A stretch of DNA of 64,000 nucleotides from Rheinheimera sp. (lineage in GTDB: Bacteria; Pseudomonadota; Gammaproteobacteria; Enterobacterales; Alteromonadaceae): assembly GCF_030824435.1 (NCBI RefSeq), contig NZ_JAVBXS010000026.1, positions 1-64,000 on the forward strand, written 5' to 3'. The notes beneath the pieces were generated by a model. That model had not been told where the DNA came from. It was given only the letters and a program-made list of their open reading frames with translations, and searched no databases. Both the position numbers and the translations under genes were made by a program. The stretch's first letter is position 1. Each line of letters begins with the position of its first letter. Positions 3,360 to 13,679 of this stretch are shown here, one piece after another.

Positions 3360-5783
3360 ATGCGGCCATTTTTAAGCCTGCCCTGGAAAATACTGGTATT
3401 AACCCTCGGCGCTTTGTTGCTGATGACAGTGGTGCTGACCAGTTTTAGTCTGGTAAAAATGGAGCAGGATTTTCGCCTGCAGCAGAACAAACAGCTGGAA
3501 CTACGGCAGCAGCAATTTAACCATCTGAATTTATTATTGGAAAACCAGCTGCGCAGCTGGATAGAGTCTTTTACCGACATGGTATTACTGCGCACCCAAC
3601 CCGACTTTGCCACCTTTGCCACTAAATTGGCAGAACATTATGACGCTATTTCTTTGCATCTGAATGTTGAAAGCATGTGGTTACTCGACGCCAAACTACA
3701 ACCTCTTTATGCATCTGTTGCCGAAATTCCCAAACCTGTGTTGACAGTTGCCCGTCAGGTTTTGGCGTTGCAGCAACCGCAATCGGCCATTTTTTGTCGT
3801 TTACAATGCACCAAACTGGTGATGGTGCCGGTACAAAACGCCAGCGGAGAATTGGCAGTGGTGGCCATTTCCACGACTTTGCTGGACGTACTGGCTTCGC
3901 TCAAACAAGGTGTTGGCTCTGAAGTGGCCATAGTGCGGATTGAAAGTGCCAATCAAAGCCCGTTGTTTAATTTTAAATTATTGTCCTTATCTAACCCCGA
4001 ACTGATGCGGCCGGTATTTGCGGAATTGTCCGAAGCTTTATCGTTGCAACAGGCCATCACTGCGGGCATAGATGTGGAGCTTAATCAGCAACAATATCTG
4101 ATTAGCCTGTTGCCGTTATTAACCCAGGATGAGGGGTTTTATCTGGCGTTGGTGGACGACATCAGTAAATTTGCACTAGCCAAACAACAATATCAGCAAC
4201 AAATTATCTGGTTTGCCTGTGTCAGCTTTTTTCTGTTAGCCCTGCTGATTTATATCAGTACCCTGAGATTAAGCAGGCGTTTGTTAAATCTGGCGGCGCA
4301 GTTACCTTTGCTGGCACAACGCCAGTTCCGCCAGTTCCGGCAGCAAAGTAGCCATGCGCCGCTGCTGTTTCAGGATGAAGTGGATGTGCTGACCCAATCG
4401 GCCCACCAGCTGAGCGTTGAGCTGGAACATCTGCACCAGCAAATTGAGGTAAATACCCAGGAGCTGGAAAACATTGCGATGTTTGATTTACTCACGGGTT
4501 TGCCCAACCGCAATATGTTGCAGTTTCAGCTGAAAAAATGTCTGGCAGCGCTGGAACGCCAGGATGGTGCTTTGTCGGTATTATTTCTGGATTTAGACGA
4601 CTTTAAAAAAATTAATGACAGTAAAGGTCATGCCGCCGGCGATCAGTTGCTGGTCGAAGCCGCCAGTCGTTTACGTTCCTGTATCCGCAGCGCCGATATT
4701 GCCTGTCGTTTTGGTGGTGATGAATTTGTGTTGGTGCTGACCCAGTCGAATGAGCTGAATTACCCTTATCAGGTGGCTGACCGTATTTTTGAAGCTTTTA
4801 AACAGCCCATCAGCCTTGGCAATCAGCTGTTTTATATATCCACCAGCATTGGCATCAGCATTACTGAAGATCCTGACGCTGTGCCGGATGAGCTGATTCG
4901 CCAGGCCGATATGGCCATGTATGAAGCCAAAGAGCGGGGTGGGAATAATGCCTTGTTGTACGATCAGCAGATGTATCAGCGGCTGGCGCAGCGTTTGGTG
5001 CTGGAGCGGGAAATTAAAGACGCTATCAGCCAACAACAATTCAGTTTAAGCCTGCAACCACAAATTGAACTTGCCACAGGCCGCTTGTCTGGTTTTGAGG
5101 CGCTGCTGCGCTGGCAACATCCACAACGTGGTATTGTGACGCCGGATGAATTTATCAGCATTTTGGAAAATTCACCCCAGATGATTGAACTGGGTTATTG
5201 GGTATTTAAACGTAGTTTTTTCCTGGCCAAAGAGCTGATTAATAAAGGTTATCCGGATATTCGTATTGCCATTAATTTGTCGGCAGAGCAGTTTTTAGAC
5301 CCAGCATTACCGGATTTATTGGCTTTGTGGCTGGAGGATTTAAATCTGTCGGCCGCCCATTTTGAGCTGGAACTGACCGAACGCACTCTGGTAAAAAATA
5401 TCGACGCTACTTTAACTGCCATGCGCGCGCTCAAAGCCCAGGGTTTTTATTTTGCCATCGACGACTTCGGCACCGGTTATTCGTCATTAAGTTATTTAAA
5501 ACAAATGCCGGTCGACATTATTAAAATTGATAAAAGTTTTGTGTTTGGCATGCTGGAAAACGATGCTGATTATCAGATTATTGTGTCGACCATTGCCATG
5601 GTGCAGAAGCTGGAGTTAAAAGTAGTGGCCGAAGGTGTCGAAAACCGCGCCCAGCTTCAGCTGCTGCGCCAGCACCGTTGTGACTATGCCCAGGGTTATT
5701 ATTTCGCCAGGCCACTGAATGACGTTCAGCTGCAGGAGTTTTTAACCGACAAGGTACCGAATGGGTATTTAATGCTGGGGTAG
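3360..5783 (+). CDS. Membrane GGDEF-EAL c-di-GMP enzyme with periplasmic sensor region
   Basis: The 807-residue protein begins 3 bases after the porin gene. Layout: TM helix about 9-30 (ILVLTLGALLLMTVVLTSF), a periplasmic sensing region of about 240 residues, a second TM about 275-300 (IIWFACVSFFLLALLIYI), a short HAMP-like linker, a GGDEF domain with intact RFGGDEF near residue 450, and an EAL domain with GFEALLRW near residue 580, NLS near 638, DDFGTGYSSLSYLK and EGVE. All main catalytic motifs are present (GGDEF, EAL, DDFGTGYS, EGVE), so either or both activities are possible; dual proteins often act as phosphodiesterases. It closes a three-gene run with a PstS-like protein and a porin, and its periplasmic part may read the state of the binding protein (inference). 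Confidence 0.85.
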   Translation: MRPFLSLPWKILVLTLGALLLMTVVLTSFSLVKMEQDFRLQQNKQLELRQQQFNHLNLLLENQLRSWIESFTDMVLLRTQPDFATFATKLAEHYDAISLHLNVESMWLLDAKLQPLYASVAEIPKPVLTVARQVLALQQPQSAIFCRLQCTKLVMVPVQNASGELAVVAISTTLLDVLASLKQGVGSEVAIVRIESANQSPLFNFKLLSLSNPELMRPVFAELSEALSLQQAITAGIDVELNQQQYLISLLPLLTQDEGFYLALVDDISKFALAKQQYQQQIIWFACVSFFLLALLIYISTLRLSRRLLNLAAQLPLLAQRQFRQFRQQSSHAPLLFQDEVDVLTQSAHQLSVELEHLHQQIEVNTQELENIAMFDLLTGLPNRNMLQFQLKKCLAALERQDGALSVLFLDLDDFKKINDSKGHAAGDQLLVEAASRLRSCIRSADIACRFGGDEFVLVLTQSNELNYPYQVADRIFEAFKQPISLGNQLFYISTSIGISITEDPDAVPDELIRQADMAMYEAKERGGNNALLYDQQMYQRLAQRLVLEREIKDAISQQQFSLSLQPQIELATGRLSGFEALLRWQHPQRGIVTPDEFISILENSPQMIELGYWVFKRSFFLAKELINKGYPDIRIAINLSAEQFLDPALPDLLALWLEDLNLSAAHFELELTERTLVKNIDATLTAMRALKAQGFYFAIDDFGTGYSSLSYLKQMPVDIIKIDKSFVFGMLENDADYQIIVSTIAMVQKLELKVVAEGVENRAQLQLLRQHRCDYAQGYYFARPLNDVQLQEFLTDKVPNGYLMLG

Positions 5784-5840
5784 TGGGTCTGACTTATTTG
5801 GGCGCTATGCGACGCCTTTGTCTCTCTGTATAAATTCATT

Positions 5841-5912
5841 TTCAGCTTGCAGCTGATGGCGCTGTGTAAGCCGGCGCGAAACCCGGTATAGCAAACTTAG
5901 CTGCAAGCTGAA
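5841..5912. repeat. Long-armed inverted repeat between convergent genes
   Basis: Perfect 14-base arms TTCAGCTTGCAGCT (5841-5854) and AGCTGCAAGCTGAA (5899-5912) enclose 44 bases that include a GC-rich inner segment (GCCGGCGCG...CCCGG). It sits between the GGDEF-EAL gene (+) and the histidine kinase gene (-). It could be a long-stem terminator for either strand, although no clean T tract follows, or a REP-like element. No second copy was seen in this window. Confidence 0.5.
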
Positions 5913-6004
5913 ACAACTGCATTTCTAATGGCTTACAGAAATCTGATTGAGTGCTGCCGATGAAAAGAAATAAAACCAACCGGTTACAATAAGTCCATAA
6001 CGGC

Positions 6005-9191: not shown

Positions 9192-10115
9192 TTATTGAAT
9201 TAAGCCTAATCGTTCAACCCGAATATTTACCGGCAACCAGCCAGGCACCCAGCTGTTTGTATCTTCGCTGTATTCCAGACTCATCCATTTAAATACGGCT
9301 TTGCCAACCAGATTTTGCTCAGGCACAAAACCCCAAAACCTGCTGTCGTGGCTGCTGTCTCTGTTATCACCCATCATAAAATAGTGTCCTGGTGGCACAA
9401 TAAATTCACCTGTTGCAGCACCGGATTGACGGTAATAGTTGTGAATAGGATCGGGCAACATGGTGTTTTGTAAAATGTCATAACTGTGGTTCGGGCCCTG
9501 TTCGGTCAAGCGGGTGGATGGATAAGGCCCTAAAAAAAATTCGCCTTCGGCTTGTTGATGTTGCGCCAGTGGTTCTATTGCCGGACATGCTGTTGTTGAT
9601 GTGTTGTCACAAAACTTTTGCAGATACAACTGCTTATTTTTATACAGAATACGGTCGCCAGGTAAACCAATCACTCTTTTAATAAAATCAACAGTTGGTT
9701 GCTCGGGGTTTTTAAATACAGCGACATCACCGTGTTGTGGTTTGCCCGTTGTTAACAAGGTGCTGCGCCACACCGGATCTTTGACATCGTAAGCGTATTT
9801 TTCCACCAGAATAAAATCATTGATCAATAAGGTGGGCATCATTGAACCTGAAGGTATTTGAAAAGGTTCATACAAAAATGAGCGGATAATGGTAATAACT
9901 GCTATTAACGGGAAAATCGACTGTGCGGTTTCAGCAATATAAGACTGAGGCGCAATTTTTTGTTTTTCTTCATCGGTAAGCACTGTGCCAGCGCCAGGCT
10001 GAAACTGCGCAAGTTTTAACTTTCTTTTTGGCGCCAGCAGCAGGGCGTCATACAGCCAGATTAAACCACTGCTGAGGGTTAACACCACTAAAAAAATTGC
10101 GAAATATCCTGACAT
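9192..10115 (-). CDS. lepB: Signal peptidase I
   Basis: The 307-residue LepB has two N-terminal TM helices (about 4-24 and about 66-82), the catalytic serine in IPSGSMMPTLL (about residue 92), the catalytic lysine in DFIKRVIGLPGDR, the box GDVAVFKNP, and the C-terminal box GDNRDSSHDSRFWGFVP. It removes signal peptides from exported proteins at the outer face of the inner membrane. The usual gammaproteobacterial neighbours lepA and rnc are absent; instead the gene is last in a minus-strand run with the borosin methyltransferase (37-base gap). Whether it is the only lepB or a second copy cannot be told from this window. Involvement in peptide maturation is possible but unproven; a housekeeping role is the default. 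Confidence 0.93.
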   Translation of the reverse strand: MSGYFAIFLVVLTLSSGLIWLYDALLLAPKRKLKLAQFQPGAGTVLTDEEKQKIAPQSYIAETAQSIFPLIAVITIIRSFLYEPFQIPSGSMMPTLLINDFILVEKYAYDVKDPVWRSTLLTTGKPQHGDVAVFKNPEQPTVDFIKRVIGLPGDRILYKNKQLYLQKFCDNTSTTACPAIEPLAQHQQAEGEFFLGPYPSTRLTEQGPNHSYDILQNTMLPDPIHNYYRQSGAATGEFIVPPGHYFMMGDNRDSSHDSRFWGFVPEQNLVGKAVFKWMSLEYSEDTNSWVPGWLPVNIRVERLGLIQ

Positions 10116-10152
10116 AAAAAATCCGTTCCTTGTTGAGATAAAGTTTTATCAG

Positions 10153-11031
10153 TTAGCTTTGCTGGCAACTCATGTCATCAGGCCGATATTCGCTTTCCGG
10201 CAGCTCAGCTGTAGCAGCTTCGGCAATATCCGCTGTTGTTTGAAGTTGCTCGGCAGCACGAATAGCAGCCAGTTTATCCAGTACAGCCTGGTTTTTTTTA
10301 AGGCTCGTAGCAGGCGGCAATACCAGCGTGGTTTTTAAATTCATTTCTGCTTGTGGCAGCGCTGATAAAGGCAGTTTGCTAATACGGGCTTGCTGGAAGG
10401 GCAGGCTGGCCGCTTCATATAAAATAACTTGATGAGAAAGCGGGTAATGCTCAGCCAATAACTCCACCAATACCTGGCGGTAAGCGGCGCCTGTGCCAAA
10501 ACGCGCCATGCTTTTATCACCGGCAATACCCACTTGCCACAGCACTAAATAAGCCGTTGGGTCGATATTGCGCTGATAAAACATATATTGGCTGGTTTCA
10601 AAATACTGACAACCCACTTTGCCGGGATCTATACCAAGTTCGGCATGTAAACAGTCGGCCGAACTGATACCAGGTTCCATATGGGCGGCATAACCTTCAG
10701 CACGGGCAAGTTCAATCACTTTATGCGGGGCATAAGCAAACACACCGGGGTGACCATAAAAAGCACAAACCACTTTTTTACCAAGCCGCACTTCAGCCAG
10801 CATTAAATCAATCATTTGCTGATACGTCTCATGGCGTGATTTGCCTTCTTCATACAGCGGGGCAAAACTGCGCACATCCTGGTGCATTTCTTTTAGCCAC
10901 AACTCGGTAATACCATCGGCCACCCCGGCAAATACCACATCGGCATTTTCAATATAACTGCGGGATAAAGGGCTGATATGTGAGCCTAAAGTAATACCAG
11001 TGCCGACTATGACGATGCTGCCAGTGGCCAT
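10153..11031 (-). CDS. Borosin-type peptide alpha-N-methyltransferase (SonM-like)
   Basis: The 292-residue SAM-dependent enzyme belongs to the tetrapyrrole-methylase fold. Landmarks are IVIVGTGITLGSHISPLSRS at the N-terminus, YEEGKSRHETYQQM, VVCAFYGHPGVFAYAPHKV, the block AHMEPGISSADCLHAELGID, YLVLWQVGIAGD, and HQVILYEAASLPFQ. From memory these match the Shewanella oneidensis split-borosin enzyme SonM (its ALYGHPGVFA, MEPGISAEACLWADLGIDPG and LLLWQIAIAGE) far better than cobalamin or siroheme methylases, and no corrin genes are nearby. Such enzymes methylate backbone amides of a separate precursor protein. A good SonA-like precursor is encoded 2.4 kb upstream in the same run. The start ATG has AAAGGAAG six bases ahead and lies 10 bases after the acetyltransferase stop. 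The region after about 255 is a poorly conserved tail of Ala/Glu-rich residues. Confidence 0.88.
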   Translation of the reverse strand: MATGSIVIVGTGITLGSHISPLSRSYIENADVVFAGVADGITELWLKEMHQDVRSFAPLYEEGKSRHETYQQMIDLMLAEVRLGKKVVCAFYGHPGVFAYAPHKVIELARAEGYAAHMEPGISSADCLHAELGIDPGKVGCQYFETSQYMFYQRNIDPTAYLVLWQVGIAGDKSMARFGTGAAYRQVLVELLAEHYPLSHQVILYEAASLPFQQARISKLPLSALPQAEMNLKTTLVLPPATSLKKNQAVLDKLAAIRAAEQLQTTADIAEAATAELPESEYRPDDMSCQQS

Positions 11032-11041
11032 TATGCTTCCT

Positions 11042-11662
11042 TTAAAAAACGGCTTCAGTTGTCAAAGCAGATTGTTGCTGGCTTTGTTGCAGCTGGACAA
11101 AACGAGCGGCCAGTTGCTGCAGATAGCAGATATTCTCTGCACTGGCAGCCAACAGATAGTTCTGTAATGGTTGTTGTTTTGGCATGTCGTCCGGCGCTTC
11201 GGTAAAACCAAAGTTCCGGATATGTTTGACGGCACCTTTATTCGACGGGTTCACCCTGGCCAGTAATGACGGTTGTTTTGCTTCTAAAAAACAATGTAAA
11301 AACAAAGCGGTTAAAGCTTCATCGGCATAACCCAGCCCCCGGGCTTCGGCACTTAACATAATGCCAAGTTCAAAAGGGGCTGCTCTGTGTTGTGTTGGGA
11401 TCAACGAAATAAAACCGATAGCCTGCTGTTGCTGGTGGAGTCGGATAGCAAAAAAATACCAGGGCGACTGCAGGTGCATGCTTTGTTTTAGACAACGCCG
11501 GAAAAACTGTTCACTTTGAGCCTGATCATAACAGGGGCCGATAAACTGCATTGTCGAAGCATCACCATACAACTGCTGATAAAGCGACAGCTCAGTTTCA
11601 GCCATGGCCGACAATGTCAGCCGGGCACTCTGGATCTGTGTTTGAATATGTGGTTTTGCCAT
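11042..11662 (-). CDS. GNAT N-acetyltransferase, RimJ/RimL type
   Basis: The 206-residue acetyltransferase of the GNAT superfamily opens with an N-terminal strand typical of the RimJ/RimL group (IQSARLTLSAMAETELSLYQQLYGD). It has the motif FELGIMLSAEARGLGYADEALTALF, which contains the acetyl-CoA pyrophosphate-binding loop (here ARGLGYA), and NKGAVKHIRNFGF near residue 145. It would transfer acetyl from acetyl-CoA to an amine on a protein or small molecule. The gene starts 9 bases after the GGDEF gene and stops 10 bases before the borosin methyltransferase, so it is almost certainly co-transcribed. N-terminal or side-chain acetylation of the peptide product is an attractive idea but is only inference; a general RimL-like role is equally possible. 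The last 30 residues are glutamine-rich. Confidence 0.82.
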   Translation of the reverse strand: MAKPHIQTQIQSARLTLSAMAETELSLYQQLYGDASTMQFIGPCYDQAQSEQFFRRCLKQSMHLQSPWYFFAIRLHQQQQAIGFISLIPTQHRAAPFELGIMLSAEARGLGYADEALTALFLHCFLEAKQPSLLARVNPSNKGAVKHIRNFGFTEAPDDMPKQQPLQNYLLAASAENICYLQQLAARFVQLQQSQQQSALTTEAVF

Positions 11663-11671
11663 GGTTGGATT

Positions 11672-13405
11672 CTATTTGCTTTTTGTCTGAGCAGACTCAA
11701 ACAAAGTGACTCTGTTTCGGCCCTGATTTTTAGATAGGTATAACGCGATATCAGCGTCACGGAACAGTTGCCTGAGTTCATAACCGGAAAGGTCGGTGCT
11801 GGTCACTCCAAAGCTGGCACTGGTTTTAATTGGGTGGCCACTGCCGCTGCAATCAATTTTTTCAATCACATCTCTGAGTATTTCTGCCAATAAGGCGGCT
11901 TTATCTGCTGAACAGGCTGGTAAAAATACCGCAAACTCTTCACCACCAATACGGCCAAAAGTGTCGACATTGCGGATAAACTGCCGGCAGTGTTCAACCA
12001 CAGTTTTTAAAATCCAGTCGCCGGTTAAATGGCCATACTGGTCATTCACCTGTTTAAACCAGTCCAAATCAAAAATAATAAAGGCATCCTGTTGTTGCTG
12101 CTGTTTGCTGCGCTCCAGCAAGGCAGATACCTTTTTGGTAAAGTGATATCTGTTACTGATGCTGACTAAACTATCGTTTTCCGCCAACGCCCGGTAAATA
12201 CGGGTATTCTGAAATGCACGGAAGGCAAAATAACTTAAAAAAACCAGCACTGTAATAAGCAAGGTAATAAACAGCTTTTTGTTGCTGTTTTCGACTTCAA
12301 TCAGGTTCTTTTGTAACGTCAGCAGGGTGTTGTTTTTTTCCAACAAGGCAATTTGCTGATTTTTGTTCAGAATTTCATTCTTGGCCAGATGGTAGGCGGT
12401 TTGTTGCAAAGATAAGGTGTTTTTGTAGAGTTTGTCTGCTTCCACAAAGTCTTTATAAAAATTCAGTGCACTTTGTGGCCGGCCAGACATTTCTTCCAGT
12501 TGGGCTTTTAACTTATAAGCTTCAACCATAGGTTCGCTACTGGATAACTGATGTTGAATGGTAAAAATCCGATCCAGACTCTGACTGGCCGTAGTGGTCT
12601 CGCCAAGCGCTAACTGGGCGCGGCTTAGCAGCACATAATAGTGTCCCAATAAGTGCACAAAACCTATTTTTTCCACTGCACTCAGATGTTGTTGTAACAC
12701 CTGCTGAGCCTGCTGATAATTCTGATGGTATAGATGGTGACGTGCAATCAATGCTTGTCCGAACAACACAGTTAAAGGGTCGTCCTGACTCTGGCAATAA
12801 TCAATACTGCTTTGTAACCGCTCCAGACTGACTTTCGCCGGGTTCAGTTCCTGCATACTGTAATCGTTGTAAAACAAGGCGGCGCAACGATACCTGCCGC
12901 GAATTTCTGCGGCAAGTAATTCCAGGCTAAGGTCTTGTGTTTCCTGATAAAGCTTCAGACTCATATAGGTCGACAAAGCGGTAACTTTTGCCACAGGTTT
13001 CAGATCCGCCTTCGACACTTTGTCGGCAAGTGCCACAGCTTCAAATAAATAACTGAAAGCAGCGGTCATATTTTGTTTAACCGTCATCAGGTTAGACAAC
13101 AGCACCAGTACTTTGTAATTAACGTCTATTGAATCACCTGTGTTTAGCGCTTGCTGGTACAGGTTTTGTGCTTTGTCGTGTTCGCCAACATATTGGGCAT
13201 GAAAGCCCTGCAGATACAGATAAAGCTGCTGTTCGTTGGCACTTAACGGCATTTTTTGCAGCTGCTGAAGCAACGGCTTCAGCGCTGATGGATTGGATAC
13301 TTTAGCTGTTTCGGCCTGTTCCAATAGTGCGGCAGGAGATGTGGCTGCCAAAGCTGGTGTTAGCAGTAATAACACCAGCCCAAAACTCAGGACAAAGCTT
13401 TTCAT
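11672..13405 (-). CDS. Diguanylate cyclase with periplasmic TPR-like sensor
   Basis: The start is set at ATG 13405, which gives a proper signal sequence (MKSFVLSFGLVLLLLTPALA) and a 577-residue protein; a longer frame upstream overlaps the preceding small gene and is rejected. Layout: signal, then about 330 residues of helical TPR-like repeats (for example GFHAQYVGEHDKAQNLYQQA), a coiled coil, one TM at about 375-397 (KKLFITLLITVLVFLSYFAF), then a GGDEF domain with AENDSLVSISNRYHF, DLDWFKQVNDQYGH and GRIGGEEFAVFLP (about 483-495). The signature is intact GGEEF, so active c-di-GMP synthesis is expected. It lies between the borosin precursor (10-base gap) and the acetyltransferase (9-base gap), an unusual place for such an enzyme. 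Confidence 0.87.
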   Translation of the reverse strand: MKSFVLSFGLVLLLLTPALAATSPAALLEQAETAKVSNPSALKPLLQQLQKMPLSANEQQLYLYLQGFHAQYVGEHDKAQNLYQQALNTGDSIDVNYKVLVLLSNLMTVKQNMTAAFSYLFEAVALADKVSKADLKPVAKVTALSTYMSLKLYQETQDLSLELLAAEIRGRYRCAALFYNDYSMQELNPAKVSLERLQSSIDYCQSQDDPLTVLFGQALIARHHLYHQNYQQAQQVLQQHLSAVEKIGFVHLLGHYYVLLSRAQLALGETTTASQSLDRIFTIQHQLSSSEPMVEAYKLKAQLEEMSGRPQSALNFYKDFVEADKLYKNTLSLQQTAYHLAKNEILNKNQQIALLEKNNTLLTLQKNLIEVENSNKKLFITLLITVLVFLSYFAFRAFQNTRIYRALAENDSLVSISNRYHFTKKVSALLERSKQQQQQDAFIIFDLDWFKQVNDQYGHLTGDWILKTVVEHCRQFIRNVDTFGRIGGEEFAVFLPACSADKAALLAEILRDVIEKIDCSGSGHPIKTSASFGVTSTDLSGYELRQLFRDADIALYLSKNQGRNRVTLFESAQTKSK

Positions 13406-13415
13406 CACAACCTGA

Positions 13416-13679
13416 TTATTGGAAGCGGATAGATTGTTGCTGCCGCGCTTTTTCGTCTTCTTCGGCTGGTTGTTCATCCTGCTGCTCTGGCGGAACCTGC
13501 AGCACACAGCGGTACACTGGTGTATCCATTAAGTCGCTCAGACCATCAATGTCGCCGCGCATTAATGCATCGAGTGCTTTCTGATCGGTATTGCCAAACA
13601 AAGACAGCAGCTGCGCCTGATTTAACTGTTGTAATGCTGCATTTGCGCCTAATTGTTCAATCATCTGAATAAGTGACAT
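13416..13679 (-). CDS. Putative borosin (split alpha-N-methylated RiPP) precursor protein
   Basis: This is an 87-residue protein. The start is chosen at ATG 13679 because AAGGAT sits 4 bases upstream on the minus strand; an upstream in-frame ATG at 13748 has no such site. Residues 1-53 look like the helical borosin-binding domain known from SonA of Shewanella: MSLIQMIEQLGANAALQQL, a loop of small residues, then KALDALMRGDIDGLSDLM (compare, from memory, the SonA stretch INAVMTGDMEKLKTL). The presumed core VYRCVLQV (55-62) follows. Aligning the tyrosine of both proteins places L60 and V62 at the residues methylated in SonA (recalled as L63 and I65). A charged Glu/Gln tail (63-87) comes after, ending SIRFQ. 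It heads a five-gene run that includes the methyltransferase. The family call rests on pattern and context, not on a search. Confidence 0.78.
   Translation of the reverse strand: MSLIQMIEQLGANAALQQLNQAQLLSLFGNTDQKALDALMRGDIDGLSDLMDTPVYRCVLQVPPEQQDEQPAEEDEKARQQQSIRFQ

Follow-up and report, generated by a model that had tools for sequence, protein, structure and literature searches.

A split-borosin locus of Rheinheimera whose variable peptide core may be read by the neighbouring TPR-diguanylate cyclase

We analyzed a window of 64,000 nucleotides from Rheinheimera sp. (the whole stretch of DNA considered here) and found a five-gene locus that almost certainly represents a new member of the split borosins (type IV-like). 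In relatives, the predicted core of the borosin precursor and the TPR sensor of the neighbouring diguanylate cyclase vary jointly and are swapped as a pair; this suggests a signalling role for the peptide, with the sensor as its reader. We consider it rather probable that the borosin product would serve this TPR-diguanylate cyclase as its cognate ligand, the two forming a pherotype-like peptide/c-di-GMP signalling system.

Methyltransferase and precursor

The five genes all lie on the minus strand and are separated, from the signal peptidase gene upwards, by gaps of 37, 10, 9, and 10 bases, a layout that was re-checked and agrees with an earlier, sequence-only reading of this DNA. That reading had also proposed a SonM-like alpha-N-methyltransferase at 10153-11031 (minus strand), and comparison with the PDB bears this out: the protein matches SonM (7ltc) at E 2e-80 and fungal borosin methyltransferases at E 8e-41 to 1e-46, and the SonM active site Tyr/Arg/Tyr/Tyr (Y58, R67, Y71, and Y93) is aligned to Y60, R66, Y70, and Y92 of the window protein. 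Pfam assigns it to TP_methylase. The prospect that it might belong with corrin or siroheme methylases, raised in the same reading, was rejected: its PDB similarity is to borosins, corrin methylases reaching only E 0.14-0.45 against 2e-80 for SonM, and all listed NCBIfam cut-offs were missed.

The putative precursor, a protein of 87 aa, is encoded at 13416-13679 (minus strand), by a gene separate from that of the methyltransferase as in split borosins. As a single sequence it has no match in Pfam, NCBIfam, or the PDB. Since the single-sequence PDB search found nothing, profiles were used, and the profile of the precursor family matches SonA at E 1.1e-12, or E 1.3e-5 without the Shewanella rows (profile positions 1-64). 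In an AF2 model, the borosin-binding domain that would serve as leader (residues 1-52; 13524-13679, minus strand) is helical, with helices at 3-12, 21-27, 33-40, and 44-51, and SonA chains rank top among PDB folds compared with the model, with a TM(target) of 0.58-0.68 but weak E-values of 0.48 to 7. The alignment places the predicted core and an acidic tail at residues 53-87 (TPVYRCVLQVPPEQQDEQPAEEDEKARQQQSIRFQ; 13419-13523, minus strand). In the available part of the SonM/SonA study, the methylation sites of SonA are L63/I65 (PMC8429565); taking these as the analogue, the methylated residues of the window precursor are predicted within ~56-62. No signal peptide or transmembrane segment is predicted in the precursor. 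Its gene lies directly before that of the cyclase even where the methyltransferase gene is inverted (loci L035, L045, L085, and L088).

The profile match and the predicted helices agree with the earlier claim of a SonA-like precursor with a helical borosin-binding domain. Lack of any relation to SonA, or of co-occurrence with the methyltransferase, had been named as a weakness to look for, and the precursor family in fact has both. The proposal of a split borosin cluster is backed by sequence, active-site residues, predicted fold (at weak E-values), and co-occurrence.

A nearly constant diguanylate cyclase partner

Three further genes had been counted as partners, and one of them is nearly constant. 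A TPR-GGDEF gene lies beside the SonM homologue in 82 of the 83 stretches examined (three of them representing second copies) and in all 60 Shewanellaceae stretches fetched, four of which repeat loci of the 83-stretch set. The neighbours had been thought unlike those of the described example; for the GGDEF gene this is wrong, as SonM orthologues of 99% identity (Shewanellaceae) have the same gene directly after the SonA homologue. Moreover, when the TPR part alone was used in a single-sequence search of 60 genomes, 39 of 42 matches fell at most 3.5 kb from a SonM homologue. The arrangement was found again in loci of at least 10 named genera, and this recurrence places it beyond chance. Among eight class-wide matches of the SonM family, five lack the TPR-GGDEF gene in the fetched stretch; the gene is thus not general to borosins.

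The two other supposed partners are less constant. The GNAT acetyltransferase gene (11042-11662, minus strand), present in 44 of 83 stretches, is a common but non-universal partner. The signal peptidase gene (9192-10115, minus strand), next in the run, encodes a second LepB-type copy with SGSMMPT and KRVIG intact, and is a patchy, lineage-specific LepB paralogue that does not belong to the conserved module. It was rejected as the conserved leader protease of the module, being not found beside L031-L034, and G013, G017, and G019 having a single lepB copy each; it could act as leader protease in the window lineage alone. The sequence-only reading had missed the main point of the locus, the link between the core of the peptide and the sensor part of the adjacent diguanylate cyclase.

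The cyclase gene (11672-13405, minus strand, with its ATG at 13405) codes for 577 aa, arranged as a signal peptide, a predicted periplasmic TPR sensor, a transmembrane helix, and a GGDEF domain. The TPR superhelix (residues 24-306; 12488-13336, minus strand) is the hypervariable part of the family, yet two cysteines, C174 and C204, are retained in all 41 sequences compared. It is followed by the transmembrane helix, placed by hydropathy at residues 377-395 (12221-12277, minus strand), and by the GGDEF domain (residues 410-565; 11711-12178, minus strand), where both motifs of active diguanylate cyclases, GG(D/E)EF and RxxD, are present as GGEEF (11933-11947) and an upstream I-site RNVD. By its intact motifs the protein is a diguanylate cyclase of predicted activity. 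In the family, the strict RxxD plus GG[DE]EF pattern occurs in 59 of 74 cyclases and GG[DE]EF in 66 of 74. A profile search (cut-off E 1e-10) listed GGDEF matches, and the best 50 Foldseek matches listed for the whole model are all GGDEF proteins, informative for that domain and not for the TPR part.

Joint variation and exchange of core and TPR sensor

Among 12 Rheinheimera modules, a set picked after its pairwise identity table was known, TPR distance follows core distance with a partial rho of 0.81 given methyltransferase and GGDEF (0.78 on codon data); the leader tracks the TPR part more weakly (0.32), and methyltransferase and GGDEF do not follow the core. The case is weakened by those six Rheinheimera modules that lack a close partner, where the TPR-core correlation is 0.24 (p 0.18). 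Among 39 Shewanella modules the TPR-core value is 0.56, against 0.05 for methyltransferase-core. Here, too, some values weaken the case: GGDEF-core reaches 0.18 (p 0.04), and the leader-TPR value (0.70) exceeds that of core-TPR, which falls to 0.35 with the leader as a further control.

Exchange is best seen in two Shewanella pairs, L165/L167 and L164/L168, picked after the 39-module correlations were known, in which the DNA of methyltransferase, leader, and GGDEF is 82-100% identical and that of core and TPR ~50%. Per block of 60 bases, L165/L167 are 88-100% identical over methyltransferase and leader, 32-63% over core and TPR, and 90-98% over GGDEF, and L164/L168 show the same pattern, an insertion aside. 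In L165/L166, a pair of the same type, the differences lie elsewhere, in a portion of GGDEF and past it (53-90%). Among the close Shewanella modules, core type and TPR clade agree in 14 of 14 cases, whereas the methyltransferase tree mixes the types.

Other cyclases of the same genomes served as controls, in single genome pairs rather than across the 12-module set. For two other sensor cyclases, sensor identity is 94 and 98% in G017/G019 and 87 and 97% in G005/G013, far above that of the window-type TPR part (27 and 55%, respectively); in G017/G019 the GGDEF domain was replaced too (69%). A TPR-type control cyclase shows 48% identity over the sensor and 74% over GGDEF between G000 and G013, so sensors outpace GGDEF in divergence for cyclases generally.

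Sequence comparisons across relatives show the gene content, its conservation, co-inheritance, and allele replacement, and by these measures peptide core and TPR sensor appear as a hypervariable cassette. As in a pherotype pair, putative ligand and receptor are both variable and exchanged together. The two are neighbours, and since a single recombination tract carries both along, linkage may well account for part of their match.

That linkage is the whole explanation, with precursor and sensor hypervariable for separate reasons (e.g. phage or predator pressure on a non-cytoplasmic sensor), seems to us very improbable. Core and TPR part do adjoin and a single tract covers both, but the core is matched more closely by the middle third of the TPR part than by the first third next to it (0.78 versus 0.49 in Rheinheimera, although only 0.56 versus 0.50 in Shewanella), the exchange tract in the Shewanella pairs ends near domain borders inside two genes, and duplicated precursors with another core persist, loci L168 and L176 retaining an extra precursor of the other core type.

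Matched, hypervariable, and exchanged pairs would likewise be expected if the peptide were a polymorphic, bacteriocin-like antagonist and the TPR protein a self-recognition or immunity sensor, the allele pairs being kept by toxin/immunity matching. We regard this as quite improbable, as the putative receptor carries a terminal GGDEF domain whose active and inhibitory sites are conserved, a better fit to signalling, and none of the five window genes was recognised as serving export or immunity. It is rather unlikely that the locus is a conventional split borosin with an unrelated natural product and a cyclase that regulates the pathway or merely travels with it while its sensor binds something else. 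Control of secondary metabolism by c-di-GMP is common, and the receptor function of the cyclase is itself deduced from sequence; nevertheless, core and TPR diverge and swap jointly while the methyltransferase, and GGDEF in the Shewanella pairs, stay constant, and a mere regulator offers no reason for such joint exchange.

A candidate peptide/c-di-GMP signalling system

If the core is indeed the ligand of the cyclase, the methyltransferase would dock onto the precursor through its helical leader and N-methylate the short hydrophobic core, which, once freed, would reach the periplasm or the exterior. There it would be bound by the periplasmic TPR superhelix of the adjacent TPR-GGDEF protein, altering GGDEF output and hence c-di-GMP. 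Against this count the lack of a transporter gene among the five window genes and of a predicted signal peptide or transmembrane segment in the precursor. Core and TPR part would be inherited and exchanged jointly as alternative alleles (pherotypes), leader, methyltransferase, and GGDEF being more conserved. For the window locus, we infer that the core is methylated, released, exported, and bound, as well as the direction in which c-di-GMP would change. Whether SonM-type split borosins are more broadly a widespread form of Gram-negative signalling, with a backbone-N-methylated pheromone, a periplasmic TPR-diguanylate cyclase as reader, and pherotypes made of core and sensor, appears to us evenly balanced. 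On this broader view, N-methylation would stabilise the peptide and let it cross membranes with no exporter of its own.

For bacterial borosins, end products and functions are, to our knowledge, established only to a small extent. According to the available text of Xu et al., 2024 (PMC11395268), the number of mature borosin compounds known is low. If the proposed signalling role is true, the product of the SonM/SonA pathway would gain a function, none being given in the available part of PMC8429565, and the range of bacterial cell-cell signalling would be extended by ribosomal peptides with N-methylation and by TPR cyclases of the periplasm. Through a receptor-like cyclase linked with a variable core, a borosin role becomes directly testable in a model organism, and the allele sets provide natural core/sensor pairs for work on specificity. 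The titles and abstracts of the literature searched contain no receptor role for borosins; the link to GGDEF may have been noted earlier.

Comparison with known systems

The closest known system is the type IV split borosin SonM/SonA of Shewanella oneidensis (PMC8429565), which, as far as the available part describes it, shares with the window locus a separate methyltransferase and precursor, the borosin-binding domain as leader, and the active-site residues; the SonM orthologues of 99% identity mentioned above adjoin the same TPR-GGDEF gene. The window locus differs in its longer precursor with an acidic tail and in its gene order, precursor-cyclase-GNAT-methyltransferase, with the GNAT gene inside the run. 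A GGDEF domain is listed in the legend of a borosin-type overview (Xu et al., 2024; PMC11395268), while the TPR sensor, a receptor role, and allele exchange are absent from the available text of that work.

A TPR-GGDEF protein is also found in the RcbA/RcbB system of Vibrio vulnificus, where, in the available part of the report, its TPR represses the cyclase and a partner from the same operon relieves this repression (PMC12282931); unlike the predicted modified peptide of the window, that partner is itself a TPR protein. In the Rap-Phr systems of Bacillus, the available text describes paired receptor and peptide genes, fast co-divergence, horizontal allele exchange, and duplication of the peptide gene during specificity change (PMC5199041). 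The window locus resembles them in pairing, co-divergence, exchange, and duplicated peptide genes, a likeness of logic. Rap is a TPR protein and Rap-Phr acts inside Gram-positive cells on regulator proteins, whereas the window TPR part is predicted to be periplasmic and is fused to a diguanylate cyclase, and its peptide is predicted to be backbone-methylated. We accordingly do not assign the window protein to the RRNPP/Rap family of cytoplasmic TPR receptors, as its TPR part is flanked by a predicted signal peptide and a transmembrane helix.

A split borosin pair and its neighbours

The five minus-strand genes lie where the sequence-only reading had placed them, with gaps of 37, 10, 9 and 10 bases. 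The methyltransferase (MT, 10153-11031) is SonM-like, as that reading had held: its best PDB match is SonM (7ltc, E 2e-80, residues 4-255). Borosin enzymes of fungi come next (E 8e-41 to 1e-46), and the competing assignment, corrin methylases, scores at E 0.14 or worse in the PDB search. Four SonM residues whose mutation reduces activity according to PMC8429565 (Y58, R67, Y71 and Y93) align with Y60, R66, Y70 and Y92 of the window protein. In 12 sequences including that of the window, R66 and Y92 do not vary, and Y60 and Y70 hardly do.

As a single query, the 87-residue precursor (13416-13679) has no match in Pfam, NCBIfam or PDB. A profile of its family (40 members) matches SonA at 1.1e-12, and a 21-member profile, which leaves out the Shewanella rows and nine other divergent ones, still matches it at 1.3e-5, the next non-SonA match being at 0.025. 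Its AF2 model (mean pLDDT 79) has helices across residues 3-51 and an open tail, and the best PDB folds are SonA chains, with weak E-values (0.48 and above). The profile match and these weak top fold matches agree with the borosin-binding-type helical domain (BBD) proposed for it. Judged from sequence, the two proteins are a split borosin pair with predicted methylation of the core, and this locus adds a new member to the split borosins.

Three further genes had been counted as partners; the GGDEF gene holds that place (see below), the GNAT gene (11042-11662) does so in part, being present in 44 of 83 stretches with a SonM homologue, and the signal peptidase (9192-10115) is not conserved with the module. 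We rejected the latter as a conserved component: no LepB-type gene stands beside the module in the loci L031-L034, and the genomes G013, G017 and G019 have a single lepB copy (two in G005 and G020). The window copy, 76% identical to the lepA-adjacent one and with SGSMMPT and KRVIG intact, is separate from the housekeeping lepA-lepB locus of the same genome, which is followed by an Era-like gene (MMR_HSR1 plus KH_2). The distribution is patchy across Rheinheimera, with a LepB-type gene some 3-4 kb from the MT in nine other stretches and more distant in L073. In L082 an Era-like gene lies between the LepB-type gene and the MT, so this copy looks like the housekeeping operon.

A TPR-GGDEF cyclase accompanies SonM homologues

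Counted from the left, the gene at 11672-13405 (minus strand) is the fourth of the run, and it is the second to be transcribed. Its product has a signal peptide followed by a TPR superhelix, a membrane helix and a GGDEF domain with GGEEF and RNVD motifs (AF2 mean pLDDT 90). Profile searches found this gene in 82 of the 83 stretches with a SonM homologue. Besides the window, the set comprises 43 stretches from genome contigs and 39 from fetched genomes, and three of its members are a further copy of a locus already in the set. The lone exception, the 4-kb contig L072, shows neither a TPR nor a BBD match; its distant SonM relative (759-1679), in which two of the active-site tyrosines are missing, is perhaps no borosin enzyme. 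With single-sequence queries in 60 genomes, 39 of 42 TPR matches are no more than 3.5 kb away from a SonM homologue, and a TPR match was found for 38 of 45 SonM homologues; among the 59 relatives' genomes, 29 have both, four SonM only, one TPR only and 25 neither. A BBD-scoring precursor directly precedes 78 of 88 TPR-GGDEF genes, under a lenient profile call that admitted domain E-values as high as 1 in a small set, and precursor and cyclase remain paired in four loci where the MT is inverted.

A SonM homologue occurs in 74 of 96 genomes of Shewanella's family. We fetched 60 of the 101 matches (four repeat loci of the first set): all 60 stretches contain the TPR gene and 55 a BBD match too, consistent with the co-occurrence of MT and precursor expected from the earlier reading. 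The 99% SonM orthologues L164-L166 have the gene order SonM, SonA, TPR-GGDEF. A class-wide draw yielded the MT at E <= 1e-30 in 9 of 369 genomes (own included), and only three of the eight others carry the TPR gene within the stretch that was fetched, so the link is a property of the SonM clade and not of all borosins.

Strict RxxD plus GG[DE]EF is present in 59 of 74 cyclases, and GG[DE]EF in 66; since these motifs are mostly kept, c-di-GMP is the probable output. In the own genome, 58 GGDEF matches were counted. All 41 sequences compared keep the same two cysteines in their TPR part, which would be compatible with an oxidising periplasm. At least two tandem TPR-GGDEF genes stand beside a single MT in L102, L119, L190 and L192, with no precursor called before the second in L102 and L119. 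The cyclase gene is longer (about 900-1090 codons) in L154 (5871-9131), L117 and L120, and may encode an extra output domain there. The 9-kb stretch L105 has a TPR-GGDEF gene of the family (4216-5997) and no MT or BBD match.

Core and TPR are replaced together

We compared Shewanella loci by DNA identity per 60-base block. L165 and L167, whose MTs are 99% identical, share 92-100% from 33 bases inside the MT gene through the leader (one intergenic MT-precursor block at 88%), 32-63%, about 50%, across the 1.0 kb of core, gap and TPR, and 90-98% over the remainder of the cyclase gene. L164 and L168 repeat this pattern, with GGDEF at 82-100% and an insertion that is an extra precursor. The same-type pair L165/L166 runs through core and TPR without a drop (90-100%), part of GGDEF and beyond being at 53-90%, and L167/L168 are at 85-100% except in the insertion and at the end of the compared stretch. 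Upstream of the MT, at a distance of about 300 to 27 bases, L165 has a variable stretch (23-75% identity to L167, flanks closely similar); as it also varies against L166, it is another variable element, independent of the allele of core plus sensor.

Among 14 close Shewanella modules, the core classes that we assigned, F-type (YQAFLLVNHGNN and like) and Y-type (YQSYLIIS and like), fall on the two sides of one TPR tree branch (support 100/100). TPR identity in the SonM 98-99% group is 50-52% across core types and 92-99% within them. The types are mixed in the MT tree, where four changes are required, although the resolution of this tree is poor (1 of 11 branches starred).

In Rheinheimera, L031 (G019) and L032 (G017) have 96% identical MTs, with the final part of the penicillin-binding gene that lies upstream mostly at 93-97% and most of the MT at 85-95%; identity breaks at the MT start, leaving precursor and TPR at 30-60%, GGDEF at 45-75% and GNAT at 12-63%. 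Replacement of this kind was not seen between the window and L032; against L031, blastn matches the penicillin-binding gene (88%), MT (86%) and GGDEF (73%), with no match across precursor, TPR and GNAT. As controls we traced two further cyclases with sensor domains, encoded elsewhere in the own genome, through the genus (matches in 6 and 11 of 22 genomes). Between G017 and G019 the control sensors share 98 and 94% identity, against 27% for the TPR here, and between G005 and G013 they share 97 and 87%, against 55%. For the second control, itself TPR-like, G000 and G013 have the sensor at 48% and GGDEF at 74%; sensors generally diverge faster than GGDEF at larger distances, and the control set does not span the 12-module set described next.

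Core and TPR distances are correlated

Twelve Rheinheimera modules were picked for having similar MTs and for their gene order, a choice made once the pairwise comparison table was known. Their mean nonsynonymous difference is 0.026 for MT, 0.023 for GGDEF, 0.294 for TPR, 0.173 for leader and 0.255 for core. Given MT and GGDEF, the partial rank correlation of TPR with core is 0.81, reached by 0 of 2000 permutations (permutation values throughout take no account of relatedness); the leader gives 0.32, and MT and GGDEF do not track the core (0.00, -0.09). The value is 0.78 when MT and GGDEF distances, both synonymous and nonsynonymous, serve as controls, and the TPR thirds give 0.49, 0.78 and 0.38, so the core-nearest third is not the best correlate. 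Removal of near-identical partners (nine modules) leaves 0.67 (thirds 0.29, 0.72, 0.27), and removal of three more (six left) a non-significant 0.24 (p 0.18).

Across all 71 modules the values are 0.29 for TPR-core, 0.11 for MT-core, 0.02 for GGDEF-core, 0.28 for MT-leader and 0.20 for TPR-leader. In 39 Shewanella modules TPR-core is 0.56 (0.35 with leader as added control), MT-core 0.05, GGDEF-core 0.18 (p 0.04), TPR-leader 0.70 and MT-leader 0.12.

A putative ligand and receptor

The simplest account of these sequence patterns would be that the core and the predicted periplasmic TPR are matched ligand and receptor, with c-di-GMP as the presumed GGDEF output. Linkage is the chief weakness of this reading, because core and TPR are direct neighbours and a single recombination tract moves both. 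On the ligand-receptor reading, N-methylation may aid the core's passage across membranes; PMC8429565 mentions membrane permeability for N-methylated peptides. More speculatively, the GNAT may acetylate the peptide.

The GGDEF neighbour as such may already have been noticed by others, since an overview of borosins (PMC11395268) names a GGDEF domain in a figure legend. Within the partial texts reached by our borosin and SonM/SonA literature searches, we found neither a receptor role nor a core/TPR exchange.

Several loci carry extra precursors. L033 (1994-3594) has three in tandem, with differing cores, ahead of one TPR-GGDEF gene; L209 has three and L208 two. Four Rheinheimera stretches with a single TPR gene each have an extra precursor upstream of the MT, with a different and shorter tail (L087:7254-7655, L089:4747-5052, L091:4216-4536, L093:7745-8044). 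The Y-type loci L168 and L176 have a second precursor with the core YQSFLLVNHGN and a changed tail, and these resemble the duplicated autoinducers of Rap-Phr systems, as described in PMC5199041.
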